From positions 62,001 through 126,000 of IMG/VR virus record IMGVR_UViG_3300032242_000818: a stretch of 64,000 bases of DNA. The stretch is one strand, 5' to 3'. Both the position numbers and the translations under genes were made by a program. This DNA comes from a virus. Under the pieces are notes generated by a model, which ran no database searches, was not told the origin of the DNA, and worked only from the letters and a program-made list of their open reading frames with translations. Positions 3,609 to 63,522 of the stretch are shown in pieces (position 1 is the stretch's first letter; each line of letters begins with the position of its first letter).

Positions 3609-4217
3609 TTAACTAAATTGCTTCTCCAAAAATGCAAGAACCTTCCCCTGCTCCTCTAAGTTAGTATTTGCAAACTCAGTAATATATGGCATAAGGTCAA
3701 AATTAGACATCAAGTTACTATATTTAGTTTCTCTTCCACGTAGGAATTGCTCGGACTGATCGGATCCACGATCTCGATATCTTTGTTCTAGGATATCCTT
3801 TGGAGCCTTTAAAAATACCACTTCTAGTTGGGTGTTCGGGAGACACATACAGAACTCTAGGAATGATTGGTTAAAAACCCTATCTCCCTCGAAAAGGATA
3901 TTACAGTTGTGGGAAGCGACCCATTCTTGAAGAGGTGGTTGAACAGCCATAGAAAGTCGATCGGTTCCAGCAAAGGTTTCGCCCTCGTCATATTTACCGA
4001 GGATGTATAGATCTCGTTCTGTATTATAAGAGGCATTTACTAATTTAGCAGGAGAAACTTCTAGCCAAGTTTTATCTTCCATAAACTTACGGAACAAAGT
4101 AGTCTTGCCAGTTCCAGGAGAACCACCAACTGCGATAATCTTTCTGGTCTTCATAGGATTAGTTACCCTTTCTACATTAATAGTGTCAACTACACCTACG
4201 TTCTCATTAAATGCCAT
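3609..4217 (-). CDS. P-loop kinase, candidate hydroxymethyl-pyrimidine DNA kinase
   Basis: 202 residues from the ATG at 4217, which has a GAGGAAA ribosome site 8-10 bases upstream; the longer ATG at 4232 lacks one. Walker A is GGSPGTGKTT (about residues 31-40) after a short extension. NILFEGDRVF fits a Walker B/acceptor region, and YRDRGSDQ with RGRETKYSN resembles the arginine-rich lid of small-molecule kinases. Phage P-loop kinases of this size next to amino-acid:DNA transferase genes include 5-hydroxymethyluracil-DNA kinases, which phosphorylate the modified base in DNA. I infer that role from the neighbours; a nucleotide or polynucleotide kinase role is the alternative. It overlaps the upstream gene by 11 bases. 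Confidence 0.6.
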   Translation of the reverse strand: MAFNENVGVVDTINVERVTNPMKTRKIIAVGGSPGTGKTTLFRKFMEDKTWLEVSPAKLVNASYNTERDLYILGKYDEGETFAGTDRLSMAVQPPLQEWVASHNCNILFEGDRVFNQSFLEFCMCLPNTQLEVVFLKAPKDILEQRYRDRGSDQSEQFLRGRETKYSNLMSNFDLMPYITEFANTNLEEQGKVLAFLEKQFS

Positions 4218-4623
4218 TTCTAATTTCCTCAATCATTTTAATCAGTTCTTCTTTACTAAAAACCCAAACACGTCCACGAAAAGAATGTGTATCAGTATTC
4301 TGATCAGTTCTCTTTGTAAAGGTCATCTTGTTAGTAACTTCTTCTGAAGCATACTTTGATAGATTACGTTTAATCTCAGTAGCATAATCTACATTACTTT
4401 CACGTAGTTTCATAAGTTCAAACTCTTGAACTCGATGTTCAACAGTCAACTCATTTAGTGAGTAACGATCTAAAATCATTTCAACTGGTGGGCGGACAGC
4501 AATAGTTGCACCAGTGGTATTCATAGTTATAGTATTACCAGTAGTATTTGAAACTGCAATATTATTCATATCTTCCCAGATAGCATTAGTAAGCCCAGTC
4601 ATTTGTCCTTTAGTCACAGCCAT
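4207..4623 (-). CDS. Unknown 138-residue protein
   Basis: Not recognised. The N-terminal third is rich in Thr, Asn and Val (NTTGNTITMNTTGATI), the middle is helical and charged (about residues 60-95), and the C-terminus contains SFRGRVWVFSKEELIKMIEE. It sits between the amino-acid:DNA-transferase-like gene (its start codon touches that gene's stop) and the P-loop kinase, so it is probably co-translated with both and may belong to the same pathway or complex. Confidence 0.55.
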   Translation of the reverse strand: MAVTKGQMTGLTNAIWEDMNNIAVSNTTGNTITMNTTGATIAVRPPVEMILDRYSLNELTVEHRVQEFELMKLRESNVDYATEIKRNLSKYASEEVTNKMTFTKRTDQNTDTHSFRGRVWVFSKEELIKMIEEIRNGI

Positions 4624-5639
4624 TAAAAATTCTCCAATCCAATTAAAACAGGTTCTTCATCATCAAACATCCACTCCAAGTTTTCTATTTTACCTGAACT
4701 TAGGAAAGAAGAAAACTTTTCTTTATCAATTCCTCTTTTGTGATCAAGACGAAAGTCAATAGTCTCTTCACGTGATTGCCAAAGAACATCCCAATCAATA
4801 CCATACCAACCATCGTTTTCTGCTTTAATAATCTCTTCTGCCTGACGATCTAAGTAGTAACCAAGATAACGACCATGATGTTCTCTAAAGATTTTCTTAA
4901 AAGAACATAAGCAGGTTTCCATTGTAAAGAAGTCTACTTGCGTTTCCAAATCTGGGAATCTATCTTTGGTTTCGGTGAGAATATATCTGGCTTCTGACTC
5001 AAGATTCGTATACTCGCTACTAGTGAGTTTTCTATCCATATCGTCGTGTCTGCCGAGGGCGCAAAGTAATCCATTACGATGAGAACGAGAGCCATCAAAA
5101 TCATCCAGCATGAGACTAGTAGGGCTGATGCGAATACCAGCGGTATGCTTAAGATGCTGAAGGTAAAACCAAGTGGAATAACGACCAAACTTATGCAGCC
5201 CAGACTTAACGCTTTCCCACAGATTATCAAAGTTGACTTCCTCATTATCTCCATAAAATCTTTCCAATCTTTCTCGTTGAGATCTGCCACCAATGAACTG
5301 TTGATATGAAGCAAACATGGCAGGTAGATGCCCCTTGTTCCACTTTGTATCAGTTTGGTAGCGTAATCGTTTATAGTTTGTTGCGTTCCACTGCGTAATG
5401 CGATCAACTGTTGCTAATTCAAAATCAGGAAACTCATTCATCAATACCCATGCAGTTGGTAATTGATAAGTGTTGCCGTATAGCCAAGCGAGCCAAAGAC
5501 GTTGTTCATCATTATGCTCGTAACGCTTATTGAGATAGTTCGTGCACCAAACAGCTGGGTCACAATCATCATACTTTAATGACCATGCATACCAGCGGAT
5601 GAACGCTTCTCTATTATTTTGCGGAAGTCTGTAATCCAT
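4623..5639 (-). CDS. Amino-acid:DNA-transferase-like (alpha-glutamyl/putrescinyl-thymine pyrophosphorylase family) protein
   Basis: 338 residues, Trp/Tyr/Arg-rich and all-helical in appearance. The N-terminal block NREAFIRWYAWSL, then DCDPAVW, then LWLAWLYGNTYQLPTAWVLM matches my memory of a family in T4-like phages annotated as amino-acid:DNA transferase. In known systems such enzymes displace pyrophosphate from an activated 5-hydroxymethyl-pyrimidine in DNA and attach an amine or amino acid. Other conserved-looking parts are KFGRYSTWFYLQHLKHT and SLMLDDFDGSRSHRNGL. It sits two genes upstream of a P-loop kinase and in the same cluster as a TET/JBP-like oxygenase, which is the context expected for DNA hypermodification. 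Family membership is recalled, not searched. Confidence 0.6.
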   Translation of the reverse strand: MDYRLPQNNREAFIRWYAWSLKYDDCDPAVWCTNYLNKRYEHNDEQRLWLAWLYGNTYQLPTAWVLMNEFPDFELATVDRITQWNATNYKRLRYQTDTKWNKGHLPAMFASYQQFIGGRSQRERLERFYGDNEEVNFDNLWESVKSGLHKFGRYSTWFYLQHLKHTAGIRISPTSLMLDDFDGSRSHRNGLLCALGRHDDMDRKLTSSEYTNLESEARYILTETKDRFPDLETQVDFFTMETCLCSFKKIFREHHGRYLGYYLDRQAEEIIKAENDGWYGIDWDVLWQSREETIDFRLDHKRGIDKEKFSSFLSSGKIENLEWMFDDEEPVLIGLENF

Positions 5640-5952
5640 CTAGATGTTCAAATTCCATTTTTAATTCATTAATTAACATATTTAATTGCTTGATTGCAGT
5701 TTTCTCTTCACGAATTTCTCTTGCTGCTTTATTCTGATCATCAAAACATACGCAACAATATCCACGAACATCGTTTTTGCGTTTCCTTGTGCTTTGAGAT
5801 TTTAAATAAAATGCGCTTAGTGGTTTATATACCCTACAGCATTTACACCAAGATACTGCTCTTGATTTTGTTCCATCAAGATTAGTTACCCATGCATCTT
5901 CAGCAATTTTCCTCGTAACAACTGCTAAATTTTCTTTTCTTAAGTGTGTCAT
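5614..5952 (-). CDS. Small zinc-ribbon protein
   Basis: 112 residues with two CxxC-type pairs, WCKCCRVYKP and YCCVCFDDQN (about residues 36 and 66), separated by a basic loop, followed by a helical C-terminal tail with coiled-coil character. This is the layout of phage zinc-ribbon proteins related to the metal-binding half of HNH/endonuclease VII-type proteins, but no catalytic His-Asn-His is evident, so a structural or nucleic-acid-binding role is more likely. A sigma70-type promoter lies directly upstream and GGGA precedes the ATG by 7 bases. It overlaps the transferase-like gene by 26 bases. Confidence 0.6.
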   Translation of the reverse strand: MTHLRKENLAVVTRKIAEDAWVTNLDGTKSRAVSWCKCCRVYKPLSAFYLKSQSTRKRKNDVRGYCCVCFDDQNKAAREIREEKTAIKQLNMLINELKMEFEHLDGLQTSAK

Positions 5953-5971
5953 AGTGTGTTCCCAAAATTAT

Positions 5972-6000
5972 ATTTTACTATAAAAATGAATGAAAGTCAA
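5972..6000 (-). promoter_or_regulatory. Sigma70-type promoter upstream of the zinc-ribbon/transferase/kinase unit
   Basis: Minus strand -35 TTGACT and -10 TAAAAT are separated by exactly 17 bases. The promoter overlaps the last codons of the GNAT gene and would drive the zinc-ribbon, transferase-like, unknown and kinase genes separately from the genes upstream. Confidence 0.65.
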
Positions 6001-6532
6001 GTTGTTTTTGATTCTCTGCAAGACTGAATAAGGTTACGCAACCACCCTTACCCTTGCGATTAACAGCCTTATTGATAGTTGTATCAGAGTAATCGTAGTC
6101 AGCATCTGCATAAGTATCTCCACCTATACGAAAGATAGATAACTGACACCCACTCTTTTGAGCACCCCAAAACTTAAATCCAAGTCGTTCATAGAAACCA
6201 ACTGCCGTCTTCTCGGATGATACTCTAAAGTAAAGAGCACCATTAGATCTTGCACGCTTCAATGAATCTTCACATAATAATCTTGCAGAACCTTTGCCTC
6301 TATGTTTTGAAAATGTATGTAAGAGTTGTAAGTTTGCTACGTGAGGTTTGGTCTTTGAGATTGTAGTAATTATGGCAGCAGTTAATTCATTACCATCATA
6401 TACGCCAATACAGCAATTCCATTGATCCTGCATATCTGCTTTGGCAACAAATGTTTTGGCAAAGTTATCTTCTTTGTCTTCAGTAATTGCTGCTATAAAA
6501 TCAGCACGTGAACACTTAGACAACTTCAACAT
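5978..6532 (-). CDS. GNAT-family acetyltransferase
   Basis: 184 residues. The acetyl-CoA pyrophosphate loop is KHRGKGSARLL (R78-x-x-G-x-A) and the C-terminal GNAT signature is AVGFYERLGFKFWG (110-123). The N-terminal part holds the beta strands of the fold (AAIITTI, VANLQLLHTF). After the GNAT core is a 50-residue extension (YADADYDYSD, then a basic KGKGGC stretch) ending LDFHSFL. GNAT enzymes transfer acyl groups to amines. Next to an amidoligase and a glutamine amidotransferase, an amine-acylating or peptide-forming step is plausible. Its start overlaps the amidoligase stop by 17 bases. Confidence 0.75.
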   Translation of the reverse strand: MLKLSKCSRADFIAAITEDKEDNFAKTFVAKADMQDQWNCCIGVYDGNELTAAIITTISKTKPHVANLQLLHTFSKHRGKGSARLLCEDSLKRARSNGALYFRVSSEKTAVGFYERLGFKFWGAQKSGCQLSIFRIGGDTYADADYDYSDTTINKAVNRKGKGGCVTLFSLAENQKQLDFHSFL

Positions 6533-7400
6533 ATGTTCTTACTTTTTCTCCGCGATCTTCTGGATGTTTAGTTTTCTCCCAGCCAATAAACTGAAGTAGA
6601 TCCCACTGCATTGGAGGGAATGTATAATGATTGTTTGAAATTAATTCTAATACACTTTGACCATCATTCAATGCAGCATCAAGGAAGTCTTGAACGAAAC
6701 GAAAACAAGATTCAAGTTCAGTACGATCCATTGTACCACGAAATAATCTAAACTCTACAGTATCAATATGCTTCAGTGCGTACATATTAATAGCGTAGCG
6801 GAATGGGCGACCCATTGATACTCCATCTTTACCAGCAGCGTGCATCTTAATGAATGAATCAAAGTCAGTTGCTTTGTTGATAATGTTATCTGACATATAG
6901 TCAGGCATTGCTCGACCACCATCAAACTTCAAATACATCTTTGCGCCTTTGGCACCTTTCATTTGGTTATGCTCAAAGTAACCATAGACGTGCTCAATAG
7001 TATCTGTTTGGTTTTCTTTAATGTATTTTGTTAATCGTTTCAATGCTTCGATATCGTCCCTAAGACCAGGAACTCTACAATGAATATGAGTGTGAGCGGT
7101 AACACCCACAGTGGGAGGAGTGCCATTATCATCAAACATTTTATAAAGTTCAAAATATCTGTCAACCTGTTCTTCCCAAGTCTTAGTAGGTTTTGTATTA
7201 ATCTCACCACCAACTGGTGGAGTTTCTCCAAGTGGGTCAGCGCAGACATATTTGTATGGTTCTCTTAGGTTAATAATATCTCGTTCTGAGTATTCCCAAG
7301 AACCAAGATGCTCTGGAATGGAAAAAGAGCGAGGAACATCACCCCACTCTATTTCCATACCGTATGTATATTTGTCAGTTGGATATGGTTTCAGTTTCAT
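6516..7400 (-). CDS. Glutamine-synthetase-fold amidoligase
   Basis: 294 residues. Motifs of the GS-like COOH-NH2 ligase (Amidoligase_2) family are visible in order: GMEIEW (14-19, metal-binding Glu), PVGGEINTKP (62-71), HTHIHCRV (103-110) and TVEFRLFRGT (214-223). Such enzymes use ATP to join a carboxylate and an amine. Published surveys of the family report gene neighbourhoods with class II amidotransferases and GNATs, which is exactly the arrangement here. The substrate (free amino compound, protein tail or base-linked adduct) is unknown. It overlaps the glutamine amidotransferase gene by 26 bases, which implies coupled translation. Confidence 0.75.
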   Translation of the reverse strand: MKLKPYPTDKYTYGMEIEWGDVPRSFSIPEHLGSWEYSERDIINLREPYKYVCADPLGETPPVGGEINTKPTKTWEEQVDRYFELYKMFDDNGTPPTVGVTAHTHIHCRVPGLRDDIEALKRLTKYIKENQTDTIEHVYGYFEHNQMKGAKGAKMYLKFDGGRAMPDYMSDNIINKATDFDSFIKMHAAGKDGVSMGRPFRYAINMYALKHIDTVEFRLFRGTMDRTELESCFRFVQDFLDAALNDGQSVLELISNNHYTFPPMQWDLLQFIGWEKTKHPEDRGEKVRTYVEVV

Positions 7401-8082
7401 AATCTACTTTCTGTAAATCTGGTTTGTTAGTTTTAACAAGATTAACATTCATTGTCATATTTGAATCAAATGTCAAGTAAGTGTTCATTGGCACTTCAAC
7501 TGCTGGAATTCTAATACCTGCACGTTTAGGAATATCCGCAGTAGAAGTAATTATAACTCCATTCACTAAAGAAGTCAAATATAATGGACGCTTACCATTT
7601 CTGAAAACAACAAGATGTTTATCATTAACTGATAACTCACAAACTGCCATAGATGCATCTGGATATTCACCAAGAGCATTTGCAGAATGTAAAACAAGTT
7701 CTGAATCATTCTTTGTTTCACAAGGGTAATGAAATAACTTACCCCAATTCTCTGGGAGTTCTTGAGTGATAACTCCGTTGTGAACAATAGAATGTGTTTC
7801 GCTTGCTATCGGCTGGTTATACAATAAATCGCTAGTACTATATCTACAGTGACCAATAAGGTAAAGATTACCGTCATCATTAACCATCTCCTCTAAATTA
7901 TCTAGATGAACAAATTTATCCGCAGGAACTGATTCCTTAAATGTAGTAATCCTACCATCTTTGATATAAGATAAACCAGTTGCATGCATTCCTCTAATCT
8001 TGGACTCGAGGAACACTTTACGGATAGATTCAAAATCCTTGGCAGTAGGATTCTGAATCAAAGCACCAATAACACTACACAT
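7375..8082 (-). CDS. Class II glutamine amidotransferase
   Basis: 235 residues beginning MCSVIGAL, so Cys2 becomes the N-terminal nucleophile after Met removal. RGMHATGLSYI corresponds to the RGxDxxG segment of the family. GHCRYSTSDLLYNQP and HSIVHNGVI match the glutamine-binding segments of GATase II enzymes, and NDSELVLH follows as in PurF/GlmS-type domains. The length fits a stand-alone glutaminase domain without a synthase partner fused to it. It releases ammonia from glutamine, probably for the adjoining amidoligase. An autolytic or regulatory role is the less likely alternative. Confidence 0.8.
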   Translation of the reverse strand: MCSVIGALIQNPTAKDFESIRKVFLESKIRGMHATGLSYIKDGRITTFKESVPADKFVHLDNLEEMVNDDGNLYLIGHCRYSTSDLLYNQPIASETHSIVHNGVITQELPENWGKLFHYPCETKNDSELVLHSANALGEYPDASMAVCELSVNDKHLVVFRNGKRPLYLTSLVNGVIITSTADIPKRAGIRIPAVEVPMNTYLTFDSNMTMNVNLVKTNKPDLQKVDYETETISN

Positions 8083-8678
8083 TATTTTAACTCCAAAAAT
8101 GACATTGTGTTTTCTATACCAATACTTCCTTTAAAGAATGTATTAAAAGATAATGAAATTCTATTTTCAGAAGATAGATTAGTATCTACCGAATGTGTTA
8201 GATCAGAAGGAAACAAAATTAACATACCTTTTTTTACATTTAAATTAAATTTTTTACAATTGAATTGATTAACTATTTTTGTATTATAAAATAAATTATT
8301 TTCTTTTTTCTTGTACAATTTTATGCTTTCTGGGATGTCAGGACTAATATAATAAACTCCACTGATTATACTATTATCGTGTGTATGCATATGGTGTGAT
8401 GTGTTTGGTTTATTAACATTTATCCATGATTGTGTTACTACTAATGATACATCTGTTTCTGGACATAAAACATTTTGAACATATTCATCTAACTTTTCAG
8501 AAATCTTTTCAGATATCTCAGGCATACTATTTAAAACATATGTGTTTAAACTGTAAGAATTCCCAGAATAATGATTAAACTCAGTTTCTAATGAATTAAC
8601 AAATTCTAATTCATTATCGTTTAATAATCCAACATCTTCAATATAAAGTGGAATTGGAAATAATGGCAAGAGAGTCAT
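8082..8678 (-). CDS. 2OG-Fe(II) oxygenase, TIGR02466/PF13759-like
   Basis: 198 residues. The core shows SWINVNKPNTSHHMHTHDN, then ISGVYYI, then MLILFPSDLTHSV and NRISLSFN. These match the iron ligands (an H-rich motif around 95-100 and distal H162) and the 2OG-binding Arg (R173) of the small phage and bacterial oxygenase family whose signature is HxHxN...SGVYY...FPSxLxHSV. The N-terminal third is helical. Substrates of the family are mostly unknown. Codon composition is slightly more AT-rich than in neighbours. Its ATG overlaps the stop of the TET/JBP-like gene. Confidence 0.75.
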   Translation of the reverse strand: MTLLPLFPIPLYIEDVGLLNDNELEFVNSLETEFNHYSGNSYSLNTYVLNSMPEISEKISEKLDEYVQNVLCPETDVSLVVTQSWINVNKPNTSHHMHTHDNSIISGVYYISPDIPESIKLYKKKENNLFYNTKIVNQFNCKKFNLNVKKGMLILFPSDLTHSVDTNLSSENRISLSFNTFFKGSIGIENTMSFLELK

Positions 8679-9991
8679 TAAAAGAAACTTTCTAGTGAAG
8701 AAGCATTAGATTCTGGATGATACTTATGAAGTTCTTCAGTACCAAGTTTAGATTCTACGTAATCATACCATTCTTGAGTAGTCCACATACCCTCAGAAAC
8801 ACCATTCCATAGTGGTTTCCATAAAGGATGTTCTTTATTCAATCTACGAGATTCAACAAAGTTATAACGGCATTCTTCATACTCATGAGAACCAAGATCT
8901 AGCATCTTCTCACGGAAATAACATACCAATGATACACGCTCAGAACCTTCGTCACATTTGATTTCAGTATTACCGTGCATAACTTCATGATTATTAATTA
9001 AGAGCAAGTCACCTGGACGAACATTAACTGCAACACGATACTCAGGGGCAATCAAATATCCTCCAGTATACTTACCATCATTAGATAATGTTAGCAAGTT
9101 AGATAGACCTGAATTCAAATCACCTGCATCATAATGAGCAGCAGTTCTAAATGTTTTATTGACAGTGATAGTTGTAAATGGAGTTCCAGGAACAAGGAAT
9201 CTTGGATCTAGTTTTGATGCTGCTTCCATTTGTGCAGCAAATCGTTCTGGTAAAAGATTCTTAAAACCTTCAGAAAGATTTTGAAGGAATGGATATGACA
9301 TTTGAAACTTCTCAAAATTGTCACGGGTATAAGAAGTTGCACGACCATAAGGGATACGTGGGTAACGATCAAACCAACCAGCAATACCTGAGTTAACAGC
9401 ACTACCATAGGTAGTTGTGCTAACCATCTTCATGACTTCTTCAGTAGCCTTTGCTCGTTCTTCGCGTGTAAAAGTTTTAATTGAATCAAGCCATGCTTCA
9501 AAATCAAACTTACCACGGAAACGAGAGATGACCCATACATTATTTTTACCATCACCACCAGCCATCTTCTTATCTACTTCACGTGGATATTTGGCACGAA
9601 CAGTATCGATGACATCTTCATTATCAAGAGCAGAGTTACGATTCTTAATGAGGGCACGCATCATCTCATCTTGATAGTTTGTTACCCATTCTCTTCCTTC
9701 AGTTGTGGCAAGAATGCCATCTTTGATACCAGAAGCAAGTCCTCGATTCTCTGTTCGAATAGCTGCTTCTCTAAGTCCGACATATGCTGCATCTTGCTGC
9801 TCTTTACTAAAATAATTTTTACGAAACTTCAATACGATTCGTTTTTCTGAGATTGGATCTTCACCAAATTGTGGTGGCATATAAACATCAGTATCTTCTT
9901 CAATAAGAAAATCATAATTTGATTCGTCAACAAACTTACCAAGAAGATGTTCACAATTATGTTTTTGTTCAGCTACAATTATCTTAACCAT
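8678..9991 (-). CDS. TET/JBP-like 2OG-Fe(II) DNA oxygenase
   Basis: 437 residues. The double-stranded beta-helix core lies in about residues 265-360: FTTITVNKTFRTAAHYD (HxD, H286 and D288), KYTGGYLIAPEYRVAV, RPGDLLLINNHEVMHGNT (distal H339) and ERVSLVCYFRE (R352 for 2-oxoglutarate). The GG before a hydrophobic strand, PEYxVA, then RPGDxLxxxxHxxxHxNT and an RxSxVxYxRE strand match the TET/JBP group, which hydroxylates 5-methyl groups of pyrimidines in DNA. About 200 N-terminal residues are helical and may bind DNA. The protein ends SSLESFF, very close to the polymerase C-terminus SSLEDFFG. No cytosine methyltransferase is visible nearby, so thymine is a reasonable target, but this is inference. 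Confidence 0.65.
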   Translation of the reverse strand: MVKIIVAEQKHNCEHLLGKFVDESNYDFLIEEDTDVYMPPQFGEDPISEKRIVLKFRKNYFSKEQQDAAYVGLREAAIRTENRGLASGIKDGILATTEGREWVTNYQDEMMRALIKNRNSALDNEDVIDTVRAKYPREVDKKMAGGDGKNNVWVISRFRGKFDFEAWLDSIKTFTREERAKATEEVMKMVSTTTYGSAVNSGIAGWFDRYPRIPYGRATSYTRDNFEKFQMSYPFLQNLSEGFKNLLPERFAAQMEAASKLDPRFLVPGTPFTTITVNKTFRTAAHYDAGDLNSGLSNLLTLSNDGKYTGGYLIAPEYRVAVNVRPGDLLLINNHEVMHGNTEIKCDEGSERVSLVCYFREKMLDLGSHEYEECRYNFVESRRLNKEHPLWKPLWNGVSEGMWTTQEWYDYVESKLGTEELHKYHPESNASSLESFF

Positions 9992-13009: not shown

Positions 13010-13558
13010 CTATGGGTTGCTCTTTGAATGTGGAACATCAAACACAAATGTGATTCTAGTACAGTCTCCAATGTTTTCTGTTCCGTGTAGTAGTTTATTA
13101 TTGAACCAAAGTAAAGTTCCAGGTTCAACATCATAATGTTCATCACCTACAAAATATCTATATCTTCCTTGGATGGATAGATGATAACGATCTCTTGTAA
13201 GGTAATATTTTCCTTCATCAATATGGCGTCCAACATATCCTCCAACTGGAAGAGATAAGAATCCACAACGACTAAATTTTTTAAAGTTTCTTTTAAGGAA
13301 ACCAACTATCTCTGTGTGATGTTTGATTGCTTCAGTTGGTATACATATCTCACTATCGCCAACAAAGTCTTCTAATTTTTCTACGCCACCAACAACAAGC
13401 TGAAGATTGCCAACTGGTATGTCGTCATATCCTCTATCGATAAGTGATTGAGCACCTTCAATACTTTTCTGAGCCATCCAATCTTCAGGATGTTCTTTTA
13501 GTTGTTTCAATATCTTTGAAACATTAATCCCAGTTTTAATGATACGAATATTATCCAA
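13010..13558 (-). CDS. Aspartyl/asparaginyl beta-hydroxylase-like 2OG oxygenase
   Basis: 182 residues. The C-terminal half carries the family pattern: GGYVGRHIDEG (H112, D114), RYHLSIQG (124-131), YDVEPGTLLWFNNKLLHGTEN (H158) and CTRITFVFDV (R168). These correspond to the Fe(II) and 2-oxoglutarate ligands of the cupin-fold Asp/Asn hydroxylases. The N-terminal 90 residues are less conserved-looking. Such genes are common in aquatic T4-like phages; the substrate is unknown. Its stop and the polymerase stop lie in a tight array, and it overlaps the 3' neighbour's reading by 8 bases with gp43 upstream. Confidence 0.75.
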   Translation of the reverse strand: MDNIRIIKTGINVSKILKQLKEHPEDWMAQKSIEGAQSLIDRGYDDIPVGNLQLVVGGVEKLEDFVGDSEICIPTEAIKHHTEIVGFLKRNFKKFSRCGFLSLPVGGYVGRHIDEGKYYLTRDRYHLSIQGRYRYFVGDEHYDVEPGTLLWFNNKLLHGTENIGDCTRITFVFDVPHSKSNP

Positions 13559-17658: not shown

Positions 17659-18194
17659 TATTCATCTCCTTCATCTTCATCAGACTGATATTCTTCAGTA
17701 CGACCAGCCATTGCTGCATGGATATCGCAAAGAGTACGATGCCAACCATCAGTATAAGTTTTACCTGGACTACCGCATTCTTCACAAGTGCGATAACTAA
17801 AATTCTCAGCAACTGAAATATAATTCCAGTGCTTATCGGTTGCTCCATTAACATAGAAACGAAGTCCACCGAACTTTTCTTTTACTTGAGAAGCCACTGG
17901 AACCTTAACAGTTTCTTCATCAAGTTTTGCTTTGGCTTCATCGATTGCTTCTTGTGTTACGAGTTTAGTGCCATAGAGAACACCACCAACACCAACATCA
18001 ACAAGATAATCATAACGACTCTTCGCTTGGCGATAATCACCATACAACATCCCACAAAGAACATCAAGGATATTATACCAACCATCACCATGTGAGAAAC
18101 CCCAGCACATGGCTGTGTGTTGCATATTCTCATTTCGATCTTTAAAGATCAGCGGATATTTTGCACAGAGTGCTTCATCAAGTTCTTTTCTCAT
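17658..18194 (-). CDS. Unknown protein with C-terminal zinc finger
   Basis: 178 residues. The N-terminal part has CWGFSHGDGWYNILDVLCG and VKEKFGGLRFYVNGATDKHWNYI, a pattern I recall from conserved phage proteins of unknown function. Near the C-terminus RTCEECGSPGKTYTDGWHRTLCDIH offers two CxxC/CxxH pairs for zinc. It overlaps the radical SAM gene by 4 bases. A nucleic-acid-binding role is possible but not shown. Confidence 0.6.
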   Translation of the reverse strand: MRKELDEALCAKYPLIFKDRNENMQHTAMCWGFSHGDGWYNILDVLCGMLYGDYRQAKSRYDYLVDVGVGGVLYGTKLVTQEAIDEAKAKLDEETVKVPVASQVKEKFGGLRFYVNGATDKHWNYISVAENFSYRTCEECGSPGKTYTDGWHRTLCDIHAAMAGRTEEYQSDEDEGDE

Positions 18195-19702
18195 ACTGCT
18201 CCAATCATTTGTTTATACATCATCAATCTCATATCATTCAATACTGGAATATTATACATTCTCTGCAATTCAACTTCAGTATAGGTGGTAATATGTTCAA
18301 GGGGGATACCCAGAGCAAGATATGATATTACTTGAAAATCTGGAACTAAAGTTTTATTACCCATACTTCTGCTAAAGTTATCTGCAATCTGAGAACACAT
18401 TCTAAAATTTAAACCCTGTTCTTCATGAACCCATCCATCATTATTAAATGTGTAACCATAGATTTCAGGATTCATTGCAAACTCAGAACCATAAAGATTA
18501 ACACCTTTTGTTTTATCTGTTATGTGTAAAGCATTAAATGATGTATGTTGTACTGGGTATTCATCGCTATGGACATATTCCCAAAGTTCTTCAAAATATT
18601 TTTCATCATCATATGGCAATCCGATAATTAAACCTACACCAGTATTAACTTTACCTTTCCATTTTTCACGAACCCATTTTAATCTTTCTTTAACTCTATC
18701 TGGATGAAGTCCTTTACCAATTGCTTTTGCGCTCTTATGATTAAACGATTCAATACCAAAGAAGTTGCCAACTAATCCTGCCTCAAGAAGTAAATCTGCT
18801 TGGTGTGGGAACCTATCAATCAAATCAAGTCTTAAGAATGCAGAAAATTTTGGTTTGAATGGCAATGATGTAAACAACTTATAAAATTCTTCCATCTTAT
18901 CATTATCATCATTGAAGGTATCGTCAGTTATGTAATATGAATCAGTTCCTCTAGTTTCCCAGAGTTTAACTAACTCATCACGAACCTCTTCCATATCTCT
19001 AATGTAAGTGCCTTTCTTTTTACCAAGTAAAGGATAAGAACAAAATTTACATTTGAAAATACAACCACGAGCAAATTCAATAGGCAATCCCTCACCTGGA
19101 AGAAGATGCACATCATCATCATGATAAAATGTTTGTAACTGATCCATTTGTGGTTCTGGATATTTACCTGAGTCTATAATGATAGAAGTCTTACCATCAA
19201 TAACCTTCTCAGTAAAATTTTCTAGTTTATCTTTTTTACCAGCAAGAAAATTAGTAAGATCAACTGAAGACACATCCCCATATCCAGCAACATAATAATC
19301 TACCTGATGATCCGCATGAGCAAGTAAAGCATATGCGCCACCAAAAACAATCTTGGCTGAACTGGTAGCCTTAACATAATCATAGATTTTAGAAATCTTT
19401 TCATATGATGTACTTTGATACATCTTTAAAAGATTATCATTGATCATGGCTACCTTACCATCTCTACGTGCATAGAAGAAGGTAGAAGAGTATCCAACCC
19501 AAAGAGTTTCTGGTGTAAGAACTTTTTCTATTGCATTAATGACTTCTTCAGCAGACATATACTGAGTATAGTCAATAACAACTGCACTATACCCATGCTT
19601 CTTCAATTCTGATGTAATCCTGTAAGGTCCAAGAGACCTTTGAATCCTAGGAAAGATTGGGTCATTATGTTTAGACCCACTCAGAATAATTACATCTGCC
19701 AT
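18191..19702 (-). CDS. B12-binding-type radical SAM protein
   Basis: 503 residues from the ATG at 19702, whose A is also the last base of the upstream TGA; an in-frame TTG 9 bases earlier is less likely. The N-terminal 150 residues look like the Rossmann-type cobalamin-binding half of these enzymes (ADVIILSGSKHND, LWVGYSS, AKIVFGGAYA). The radical SAM core has ARGCIFKCKFCSYPLLG, the Cx3Cx2C [4Fe-4S] motif, followed by TDDTFNDD and GVGLIIGLPYDDEKYF. Members methylate or rearrange unactivated carbons; the substrate is unknown. It is unusual among replication genes and could act on DNA bases, peptides or a cofactor. Confidence 0.8.
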   Translation of the reverse strand: MADVIILSGSKHNDPIFPRIQRSLGPYRITSELKKHGYSAVVIDYTQYMSAEEVINAIEKVLTPETLWVGYSSTFFYARRDGKVAMINDNLLKMYQSTSYEKISKIYDYVKATSSAKIVFGGAYALLAHADHQVDYYVAGYGDVSSVDLTNFLAGKKDKLENFTEKVIDGKTSIIIDSGKYPEPQMDQLQTFYHDDDVHLLPGEGLPIEFARGCIFKCKFCSYPLLGKKKGTYIRDMEEVRDELVKLWETRGTDSYYITDDTFNDDNDKMEEFYKLFTSLPFKPKFSAFLRLDLIDRFPHQADLLLEAGLVGNFFGIESFNHKSAKAIGKGLHPDRVKERLKWVREKWKGKVNTGVGLIIGLPYDDEKYFEELWEYVHSDEYPVQHTSFNALHITDKTKGVNLYGSEFAMNPEIYGYTFNNDGWVHEEQGLNFRMCSQIADNFSRSMGNKTLVPDFQVISYLALGIPLEHITTYTEVELQRMYNIPVLNDMRLMMYKQMIGAV

Positions 19703-20061
19703 CAACCCCAAGTCCTATGATTTTCTGCTACGTGTTCCATTCCATCATAGTCGTGGATATGCCATTCCACATCGTCAGGAATTTCAACGATAGCAATATC
19801 CGCAGCCCAACTATTTGCTGCAGTGCCCATCTCTTCAATAACTGCGATCAAATCTGGATCAGATCTATTGTTACAGAAGTCATAGTCGCTTAGATAATGA
19901 TCATCGTCGCCAGAATGACCTGCTTCAAAATAAGAGTTACCCAACAGTCTGGATTCATTCTCTACTTTGTCAAAGGCAATACCTTTACGATCAAGTAGTT
20001 TCTCAAATGCTTCATTTGAGATACCAAACCCACCAAAACAACGATTGATTGCTACTTTCAT
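19702..20061 (-). CDS. Conserved phage protein (MKVAINRCFGGFGIS type)
   Basis: 119 residues. The start KVAINRCFGGFGISNEA is a signature I recall in small phage proteins of unknown function. The rest is acidic (LSDYDFCNNRSDPDLIAVIEE) and ends with VEWHIHDYDGMEHVAE. The gene overlaps the ligase stop region by 4 bases and the radical SAM start by one base. No enzymatic motif is evident. Confidence 0.7.
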   Translation of the reverse strand: MKVAINRCFGGFGISNEAFEKLLDRKGIAFDKVENESRLLGNSYFEAGHSGDDDHYLSDYDFCNNRSDPDLIAVIEEMGTAANSWAADIAIVEIPDDVEWHIHDYDGMEHVAENHRTWG

Positions 20062-60960: not shown

Positions 60961-63522
60961 TTATACTATTGAACCATGGTCTTGCATGGTCATAACTGTT
61001 TCCGTGATATATCCAAAATCGTAGGGAACAACCCCTGAGGCAGTTGATCCACTTGCTCCAGTAACAGCAACAGTGCCATCACCTGCGATTTGTAAACCAC
61101 TACCAATTTTAATACCACCAAGTACCGAACTGGAAGCGATTGGAAGAGTATAACTTCCACCACCACCTCCAGAAGACGCAGCCCACTGAACACCAGATCC
61201 AGTAGATGTTAAAACATAACCGCTTGTACCAGTACTACCGTCAGCAGTTAATGAACCAGTAATTATTGGACTATTTAGTGTTTTATTAGTTAGTGTTTGA
61301 GAACCAGTATTTGTAGTTACAACTGAGGTATCTACAGAAATAGTTCCAGTTGTAGTAATTGCGCTACCAGTAGAACTTGTTAAACCAGTTCCAGCTGTAA
61401 TAGAAGTTACTGTTCCAGAACCACCACTAGAAGCAGTTGAACTAATAACACCACTACCATCGATAGTAATTGTAGTACCATCAACTTTAACAGCACCAAA
61501 TGCACTTGTTGTTGCAACAGGTAATCTAGCAGCAGCGATAGTACCAGTAAGATTACTTGCAGCTAAAGAACCAGAAAGAGTAGTTGCGCTGAAAGTTCCA
61601 CTTAATGCTAAAGTAGTTGTGCCAGAAGTCCAAGATAACGCAGTAAGTGGACTAACAGCAGTTGTTGAACTTGCATAATATGCTAGTTGGCCAGCAGTAC
61701 CTGCGTTAACAGTACCTGAACCAGTACCACCACTACCTGACGAACTAATAATACCATTGGCATCAATAGTAATAGAAGATCCATCAACACGAACCGCACC
61801 TAATGCACCAGTAGTTGCTTTAGGCAATGATGATGATTGGATAGTTCCAACGATATTTGCAGCAGTAACAGAACCAGCAGATCCAGAAACTGAACCAGTA
61901 ATTGTATTAGTAACTGTTAAGTTTGTAAGCGTACCAACAGAAGTTAAACTTGAGTTGACTACGTTGGCTGCTAATGTTGTTCCTGTTAATTGACCAGCTG
62001 CTGCAGCACCAACTGGAGCAGAAGCAGTAATAACACCATTGGTAATTGTAATAGAAGTACCATCAATCTTAACCGCACCAAGTGTAGTTGTTGTTGCGAC
62101 TGGTAATCTAGCAGCAGGTAATGTTCCGCTAGTTATATTTGAAGCATCAGTTGTATCAGTGGTTGCTGACGTAGCAAGACCAGTGATTTTACTTCCTGCT
62201 AAACTTGTAATCCAAGTAGGGTTAGCGTATGATACTGTTGTATAAACACCATTAGTAACAGAACCAGCATTTCCAGTAACACTACCAGAAATTGGGTTAG
62301 TAACAGTAAGGTTTGCTAATGTACCAACAGAAGTTAAACTTGACGAAACTACGTTTGAAGCAAGAGTAGTTCCTGTTAATGCTGAAGCTGGGGCAGTAAT
62401 ACCAGATTGAGTAACAGAAATAATACCACTGGAAATACCGATAGTAGTTCCATCAACTTTAACACCACCAAGTTGTGTTGCTGAAGCAGTCGCTAAACCA
62501 ATAGTTCCACTAGTATTTGTAATTCCACTAGTACCAACTACTGGAATAATTACGCCACCAAGCGTTGTGGTAGTTGCAGCACCAAGCGTATATGAACTTG
62601 TGCCAGTAATTGTTAATGTTTTGGTTGAACTATTTGTTGTTAAAGTAATACCAGTGCCAGCTGCTACTGTTAGCGTATCAGTTGCAGAACCAGCAGTAAT
62701 ATTTGTTTGACCTGAAACTGCAACTGTAGAAAATATTGCAGAGGGTATAGTTGGTTTATTTGTTAGATCAGTATATGAGCCACTAAACAAAGTAGGTTTG
62801 TTTATAAGGTCAGTATAAGATCCAGATGTAGCAACAGTTGCTAATGAAGGCGCACCAGATAAACTAGAATATGCACCATCAAAAACTGTGGAAATAGTAC
62901 CAGCTGTTACTGATAAACCACTACCAACAATTACACCACCAAGTGTAGTTATCGTTGCAGCTGGAAGAGTATATGATGCAGGAAGTGCTGCCCAAGCAAC
63001 ACCAGTTCCAGTAGATTTTAAATAATATCCATTAGTACCTACTGAACCACCAGCAGATAATGTGCCTGTTAAAACTGCGTTACCAATAGATGGTGCAGTT
63101 AAAGTTTTATTTGTTAGGGTTTGTGAAGAAGTAAGTTCAACTAAAGTTTTGCGACCACTACCAGTACCTATTGTAAGAGTACCAATAGAAGAATCATAAA
63201 CTGCTGATGCAACATCAGTCTGACTAGCAGAAGTTGATGTTGGTAGGATTAATATACCTTGATCAAGCGTGACAGTACCTTGACTAATACTTGGTGTATT
63301 AAGTACTGGACTTGTAAGGGTTTTATTTGTTAGAGTTTGTGTTGCTGTTAGTGTAACTATACCAGAGTTATACGCAGCAAAGGATTGGATAATGTTATTA
63401 GCATTTTTGAAATACAGTAAGCCATCAGCATAGTTTAATGCCAATTCACCGTAGTCCAAGTCAGTCGTTGCTGGGGCTTTGCCCACTACAGACGACTTCT
63501 TGAGTAAAACTTTATTACTCAT
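60961..63522 (-). CDS. Repetitive tail-fibre protein (853 residues)
   Basis: It starts NKVLLKKSSVVGKAPATTDLDYGELALNYADGLLYFKN, a common start of T4-like fibre proteins. The body contains repeated units LTNKTLTSPVLN and seven LG-[GA]-V-x-V-DGTTI-type repeats (for example LGGVKVDGTTIGIS and FGAVKVDGTTITID), typical of beta-helical fibre shafts. It ends YDFGYITETVMTMQDHGSIV. It probably binds the host or joins a fibre. Confidence 0.75.
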   Translation of the reverse strand: MSNKVLLKKSSVVGKAPATTDLDYGELALNYADGLLYFKNANNIIQSFAAYNSGIVTLTATQTLTNKTLTSPVLNTPSISQGTVTLDQGILILPTSTSASQTDVASAVYDSSIGTLTIGTGSGRKTLVELTSSQTLTNKTLTAPSIGNAVLTGTLSAGGSVGTNGYYLKSTGTGVAWAALPASYTLPAATITTLGGVIVGSGLSVTAGTISTVFDGAYSSLSGAPSLATVATSGSYTDLINKPTLFSGSYTDLTNKPTIPSAIFSTVAVSGQTNITAGSATDTLTVAAGTGITLTTNSSTKTLTITGTSSYTLGAATTTTLGGVIIPVVGTSGITNTSGTIGLATASATQLGGVKVDGTTIGISSGIISVTQSGITAPASALTGTTLASNVVSSSLTSVGTLANLTVTNPISGSVTGNAGSVTNGVYTTVSYANPTWITSLAGSKITGLATSATTDTTDASNITSGTLPAARLPVATTTTLGAVKIDGTSITITNGVITASAPVGAAAAGQLTGTTLAANVVNSSLTSVGTLTNLTVTNTITGSVSGSAGSVTAANIVGTIQSSSLPKATTGALGAVRVDGSSITIDANGIISSSGSGGTGSGTVNAGTAGQLAYYASSTTAVSPLTALSWTSGTTTLALSGTFSATTLSGSLAASNLTGTIAAARLPVATTSAFGAVKVDGTTITIDGSGVISSTASSGGSGTVTSITAGTGLTSSTGSAITTTGTISVDTSVVTTNTGSQTLTNKTLNSPIITGSLTADGSTGTSGYVLTSTGSGVQWAASSGGGGGSYTLPIASSSVLGGIKIGSGLQIAGDGTVAVTGASGSTASGVVPYDFGYITETVMTMQDHGSIV

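Follow-up and report, generated by a model that had tools for sequence, protein, structure and literature searches.

A TET/JBP locus of T4-like phages with exchangeable cassettes and its putative role in thymine hypermodification

A freshwater, T4-like phage carries a minus-strand operon whose products very probably oxidise a pyrimidine of the completed DNA, thymine being the likeliest one, and subsequently couple an amine to that base. In related phages the site behind the TET gene holds either the genes of this operon or a glycosyltransferase or glycosyltransferase-like cassette, with a single locus holding other proteins. We regard it as quite possible, if short of probable, that this is a T4-like TET locus with exchangeable cassettes, where TET would oxidise thymine in finished DNA and a swap of the cassette would switch the DNA coat between aminated thymine (GATase-ADDT-kinase cassette) and glycosylated thymine, which would be the phage equivalent of base J. 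The window, i.e., the whole stretch of 64,000 nt analysed, corresponds to positions 62001–126000 of a virus record of 164,717 b (G000). This record is probably complete, because 104 b are repeated exactly and in direct orientation at both of its ends (bases 1–104 and 164614–164717, outside the window).

Gene content and order of the operon

Read on the minus strand from position 9991 to 3609, the operon encodes a TET/JBP Fe(II)/2-oxoglutarate DNA oxygenase (8678–9991, 437 aa; PF12851), a second Fe(II)/2OG oxygenase of the 2OG-FeII_Oxy_5 type (8082–8678; PF13759, 5.8e-22; phrog_81, 4e-38), a standalone class II glutamine amidotransferase (GATase II) with the glutaminase domain only (7375–8082), an amidoligase-like (COOH-NH2 ligase) protein (6516–7400), a GNAT acyltransferase (5978–6532), a small endonuclease VII/HNH-like protein (5614–5952; phrog_1035, 1.1e-4), an amino-acid:DNA transferase (ADDT; 4623–5639), a small conserved protein without a family match over the cut-off in Pfam or PHROG (4207–4623), and a P-loop kinase related to 5-hydroxymethyl-dU (5-hmdU) DNA kinases (3609–4232). 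According to their coordinates, neighbouring genes overlap by 1 to 26 b, as in a translationally coupled operon, which the arrangement resembles, except for a gap of 25 b between the GNAT gene and the small endonuclease-like gene. The genes named in a preliminary description of this DNA all have intact open reading frames; the second oxygenase, situated between TET and the glutaminase, was missing from its list.

The order of the gene set is kept across dozens of distinct viral contigs and the set is thus far beyond chance. Together with the co-segregation of the genes, described below, this conserved order supports the earlier proposal of a single modification operon, and the cluster may be complete as a hypermodification pathway, as also proposed. 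Conversely, it is improbable that TET, ADDT and the kinase are functionally unlinked or act on RNA or protein: although the 2OG oxygenases at 8082–8678 and 13010–13558 of the window belong to families without known DNA-base oxidases, this reading is at odds both with the many loci in which the genes keep their order and segregate together and with the adjacent ParB-TET-ADDT-kinase genes of an independent lineage, Coopervirus.

Several genes of the operon show variable occupancy among relatives. The second oxygenase is probably accessory, since it was detected only in a minority of related cassettes, and the endonuclease VII/HNH-like gene, replaced in some relatives by a ParB-like gene, is probably an insertion. 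The earlier reading of a glutamine amidotransferase, a GNAT and an amidoligase between the core genes stood for the first two (PF13522, GATase_6, 3e-9, and PF13673, 1.8e-11, respectively), whereas the amidoligase-like protein remained below the cut-off for PF12224 (0.0071; 16.7 bits vs a cut-off of 22); its positional homologue in locus L142, 29 % identical, scored just above it (22.7 bits). In the glutaminase, Cys2, R80, N102-G103 and D126, as well as the motifs HCRYSTSD, HNG and KND, are invariant in relatives.

Two further genes of the window deserve mention. One, at 13010–13558, between thioredoxin-like and DNA polymerase genes, codes for an aspartyl/asparaginyl beta-hydroxylase-like protein (1.9e-7), the third Fe/2OG-type enzyme of the region; the other, at 18191–19711, near replication genes, codes for a protein of the radical SAM type (1.3e-16), which matches B12-binding domains weakly in its N-terminal part and has no clear PHROG.

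Oxygenase, transferase, kinase and the proposed chemistry

The product of 8678–9991, previously described as a TET/JBP-like oxygenase, indeed matches the Tet_JBP profile PF12851 (9.6e-25; 87.1 bits, cut-off 34.9), and its HxD...H iron triad and 2OG-binding Arg (H286, D288, H339 and R352) are invariant in 125 of 125 homologues. The family profile retrieved human TET2 at 7e-8 from PDB sequences, and the 26 best PDB matches of an AlphaFold2 model of moderate confidence (mean pLDDT 76.8) were all TET-family proteins (CcTet, TET2, NgTet1 and CMD1), with TM-scores of about 0.2–0.5. In existing annotations, TET/JBP proteins appear mislabelled as "SNF2 DNA repair protein" or "queuine tRNA-ribosyltransferase".

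The assignment of 4623–5639 as an amino-acid:DNA-transferase-like protein was likewise confirmed by the ADDT profile PF18724 (3.5e-24; 86.2 bits, cut-off 26.2). It also belongs to phrog_3271 (3.3e-55), in common with the ADDTs of Salmonella phage ViI, Caulobacter phage Cr30 and Mycobacterium phage Zemanar. Residues W157, E241, C245 and K248 are invariant down to 17 % identity, and the E-C-K motif is common to the proteins of ViI, M6, Cr30 and Zemanar.

The kinase falls within a P-loop kinase family, as proposed, matching PF18751 (Ploopntkinase3; 1.3e-6, 28.5 bits, cut-off 27), which is also the family of the Zemanar cluster kinase, and phrog_800 (7.3e-14), whose members include the ViI and M6 proteins recognised by Pfam HMUDK_HMUD1. 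A profile-profile alignment with the ViI/M6 5-hmdU kinases (hhalign) gave 95.7 % and an E value of 9e-9. On the other hand, neither the kinase nor any other part of the record matched the Pfam 5-hmdU kinase model PF18748 at E ≤ 1, and the start first proposed, an ATG at 4217, lies inside an open reading frame that begins with a TTG at 4232. Although it holds the ViI/M6 5-hmdU DNA kinases, phrog_800 is named "terminase small subunit" in PHROG, apparently in error, and genome annotations have taken the name over (L176:38203-38865, L175:16686-17249 and L250:2875-3465).

From these sequence relationships we consider it rather probable that the operon directs a post-replicative hypermodification, in which TET would oxidise thymine, the kinase would phosphorylate the product and ADDT would aminate it. 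The TET/JBP enzyme, whose class is established and whose substrate is predicted, would convert thymine in the phage DNA into 5-hydroxymethyluracil by hydroxylating its 5-methyl group. Judging by kinship, the kinase would then phosphorylate the hydroxymethyl group and ADDT would displace the phosphate with an amine. In the last and weakest step, the glutaminase would release ammonia, and the amidoligase-like protein and/or the GNAT might amidate or acylate the side group. Since ADDT has the glutaminase at its side also in cassettes without a detected amidoligase, the ADDT reaction may itself be a recipient of the ammonia. In relatives, the same TET product would be passed to a glycosyltransferase instead. 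The purpose of the modification is presumably to hide the DNA from host nucleases.

Source of the hydroxymethyl group

Searches across the whole 164,717-b record found neither a C5-cytosine methyltransferase (PF00145) nor a ThyA-family dUMP hydroxymethylase (PF00303), and identified a single ThyX (flavin-dependent thymidylate synthase), which lies beyond the window. The absence of thymidylate-synthase homologues and cytosine methyltransferases noted in the preliminary description thus extends to the entire record for the ThyA family and the C5-methyltransferases, and has to be qualified for ThyX. PF00145 was also absent from 38 other viral records in which the presence of TET was checked, including those of the cultured phages DLP6, Cr30, Zemanar, P12024L, HTVC112P and S-CBWM1; many of these records are fragments, in which each single absence is weak, and it is the full-length ones that carry the argument. 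In control genomes the search for C5-methyltransferases succeeded in 10 of 14 cases, and a TET lineage with such an enzyme, sought as a positive control, was found in 0 of 39 TET-bearing records, including our own. PF00303 was present in one (Cr30) of the 23 TET-bearing records tested. Since no C5-methyltransferase was found in the record, and ThyX is present, thymine is the only 5-methyl pyrimidine whose synthesis can be attributed to the phage's own genes. The missing C5-methyltransferase and ThyA genes support, without proving, the oxidation of thymine already in DNA.

An unlikely alternative is that TET acts on 5-methylcytosine produced by a methyltransferase of the host, or by an unrecognised one of the phage, and that the kinase and ADDT decorate 5-hydroxymethylcytosine. 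The active site would be compatible with thymine as well as with 5-methylcytosine: D291 and R360 align with N1387 and H1904 of TET2, which we take to be its base-facing residues, and either base could pair with D291/R360. The phage TETs whose activity has been proven to date use 5-methylcytosine, and a C5-methyltransferase and glycosyltransferases are frequently encoded alongside them, at least among those covered by Burke 2021 as relayed in PMC12730594. These C5-methyltransferase-TET-glycosyltransferase systems resemble the window in that a TET-made hydroxymethyl handle is then decorated, but the window lacks the C5-methyltransferase, and the kinase and ADDT take the place of the glycosyltransferases. 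Against a 5-methylcytosine substrate stand the lack of PF00145 in all 39 TET-bearing records, the sparse modification that host methylation at a few motifs would leave, and the ties of the ADDT and 5-hmdU kinase families with thymine derivatives in ViI and M6.

It is most improbable that the hydroxymethyl group has another source and that TET oxidises it further, for instance to a formyl or carboxyl group, the latter being amidated by the amidoligase-like protein. Stepwise oxidation is possible for TET enzymes, and a phage amide ligase acting on the carboxyl of a DNA base is known, namely CmoY on 5-carboxymethylcytosine (PMC12783734). Nevertheless, the record contains ThyX as opposed to a ThyA-family hydroxymethylase, and the carboxyl route needs no kinase, yet among the 52 related cassettes with ADDT the kinase is present in all and an amidoligase was detected in only 25.

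Cassette exchange behind TET

Loci were fetched by similarity to TET, ADDT and a glycosyltransferase, and are therefore not a random sample. The interval from TET to a SprT-like gene was visible in 87 distinct loci, with the fixed arrangement helicase-TET-cassette-SprT. In 52 of them the cassette comprised ADDT, GATase and kinase, whereas 34 contained a glycosyltransferase or glycosyltransferase-like cassette, and the remaining locus a kinase with two different proteins, of which one belongs to the same PHROG as the ADDT of M6. The larger part of the second group (29 loci) carried a group 1 glycosyltransferase, designated GT_B (Pfam, 3e-9). The other five carried GT_C, a protein of 335 aa accompanied by a small HAD-like protein, whose reading as a putative glycosyltransferase comes from its sequence and position; it showed no match in Pfam or PHROG and no profile match to the TET-associated glycosyltransferase-like protein of Cr30, and the confidence of its structure model (pLDDT 44.6) was too low for fold comparison.

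ADDT did not occur together with GT_B or GT_C in any of the 87 loci. This extended to long records: PF18724 was absent from five long GT_B records and from the GT_C record, and GT_B from our own record and three other long ADDT records. The glutaminase tracked ADDT, being present in all 52 loci with ADDT and in none of the 35 without it, and ADDT, GATase II and the kinase travel as a unit. Their companions varied: 27 of the ADDT cassettes had a second type of GNAT and no detected amidoligase, 19 had amidoligase and GNAT, and six had amidoligase and, in place of GNAT, a low-molecular-weight phosphatase-like gene (LMWPc, 3.8e-17, in L142:2974-3396). The small protein (4207–4623 in the window) is kept with ADDT and with some of the GT cassettes, adjoining GT_B in loci L108, L111 and L122.

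For a tree of 100 TETs, from which misread sequences and very long ones (L029, L229, L084 and others) were excluded, 11 changes of cassette label are required in all, and branches with good support make at least six changes of the ADDT label unavoidable. Such a swap at one site is expected if TET makes a hydroxyl handle shared by the different cassettes.

Outside these 87 loci, a glycosyltransferase or glycosyltransferase-like gene and ADDT can co-occur, as in L195 and near the TET of Cr30. Both L195 (7404–14260) and Cr30 (L009:12001-20894) contain in one region TET, the glycosyltransferase(-like) gene, ADDT, an inositol-1-phosphate synthase, assigned in L195 by reading of the sequence, and a phrog_800-type kinase, a content that suggests an inositol-containing decoration. 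The TET-associated glycosyltransferase family PF20691, already known in Pfam, adjoins the TETs of P12024L and S-CBWM1 and is weakly matched in Cr30.

The combination of TET/JBP, ADDT and kinase is already known from Coopervirus and Tonitrus. In the Coopervirus Zemanar, genes 2–4 code for TET/JBP, phrog_3271 (ADDT) and phrog_800 (kinase) and are adjacent, and, as in our record, there is no C5-methyltransferase or ThyA-family gene. However, its proteins are distant, with a TET/JBP match below the Pfam cut-off, a ParB-like gene comes first, and no glutaminase, amidoligase or GNAT is annotated in its first 9 kb. Rhodococcus phage Tonitrus likewise has a TET-like JBP, an aGPT-PPlase2/ADDT-type protein and a 5-hmU DNA kinase adjacent, but with a ParB-like gene and without reported glutaminase, amidoligase or GNAT; its cluster was published as a putative thymidine hypermodification system, on inferred function only (PMC11955845).

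What is new is a populous T4-like group that yielded no C5-methyltransferase, with the glutaminase as constant partner and a repeated exchange of putative amine and sugar cassettes behind one TET. To our knowledge, in those phage thymine hypermodifications whose chemistry is known, the starting point is 5-hmdU synthesised at the nucleotide level. Phages ViI, M6 and phiW-14 follow this course, and the DNA of ViI and M6 carries thymines derived from 5-hmdU (PMC6449724). ViI and M6 share the ADDT and P-loop kinase families with the window, but they carry a ThyA-family gene and their 5-hmdU is thought to be made as a nucleotide, whereas here TET/JBP would form it in DNA. A TET/JBP that oxidises thymine would, if true, be a second, post-replicative entry to these modifications, open to sequence-selective modification. 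It would also be a bacterial-virus parallel to the base J pathway (JBP1/2 plus a glucosyltransferase), with which it would share the oxidation of thymine in DNA and, in sibling phages, the addition of a glycosyltransferase, while differing in that the operon of the window would use a phosphate intermediate to introduce an amine. Up to 2019, no phage had been reported to contain glucosylated 5hmdU (PMC6449724). The swap at a fixed site would amount to a natural series of enzymes that place different decorations on one handle, and could help both to discover further chemistry of DNA modification and to explain how the DNA coat of phages shifts in response to host defences.
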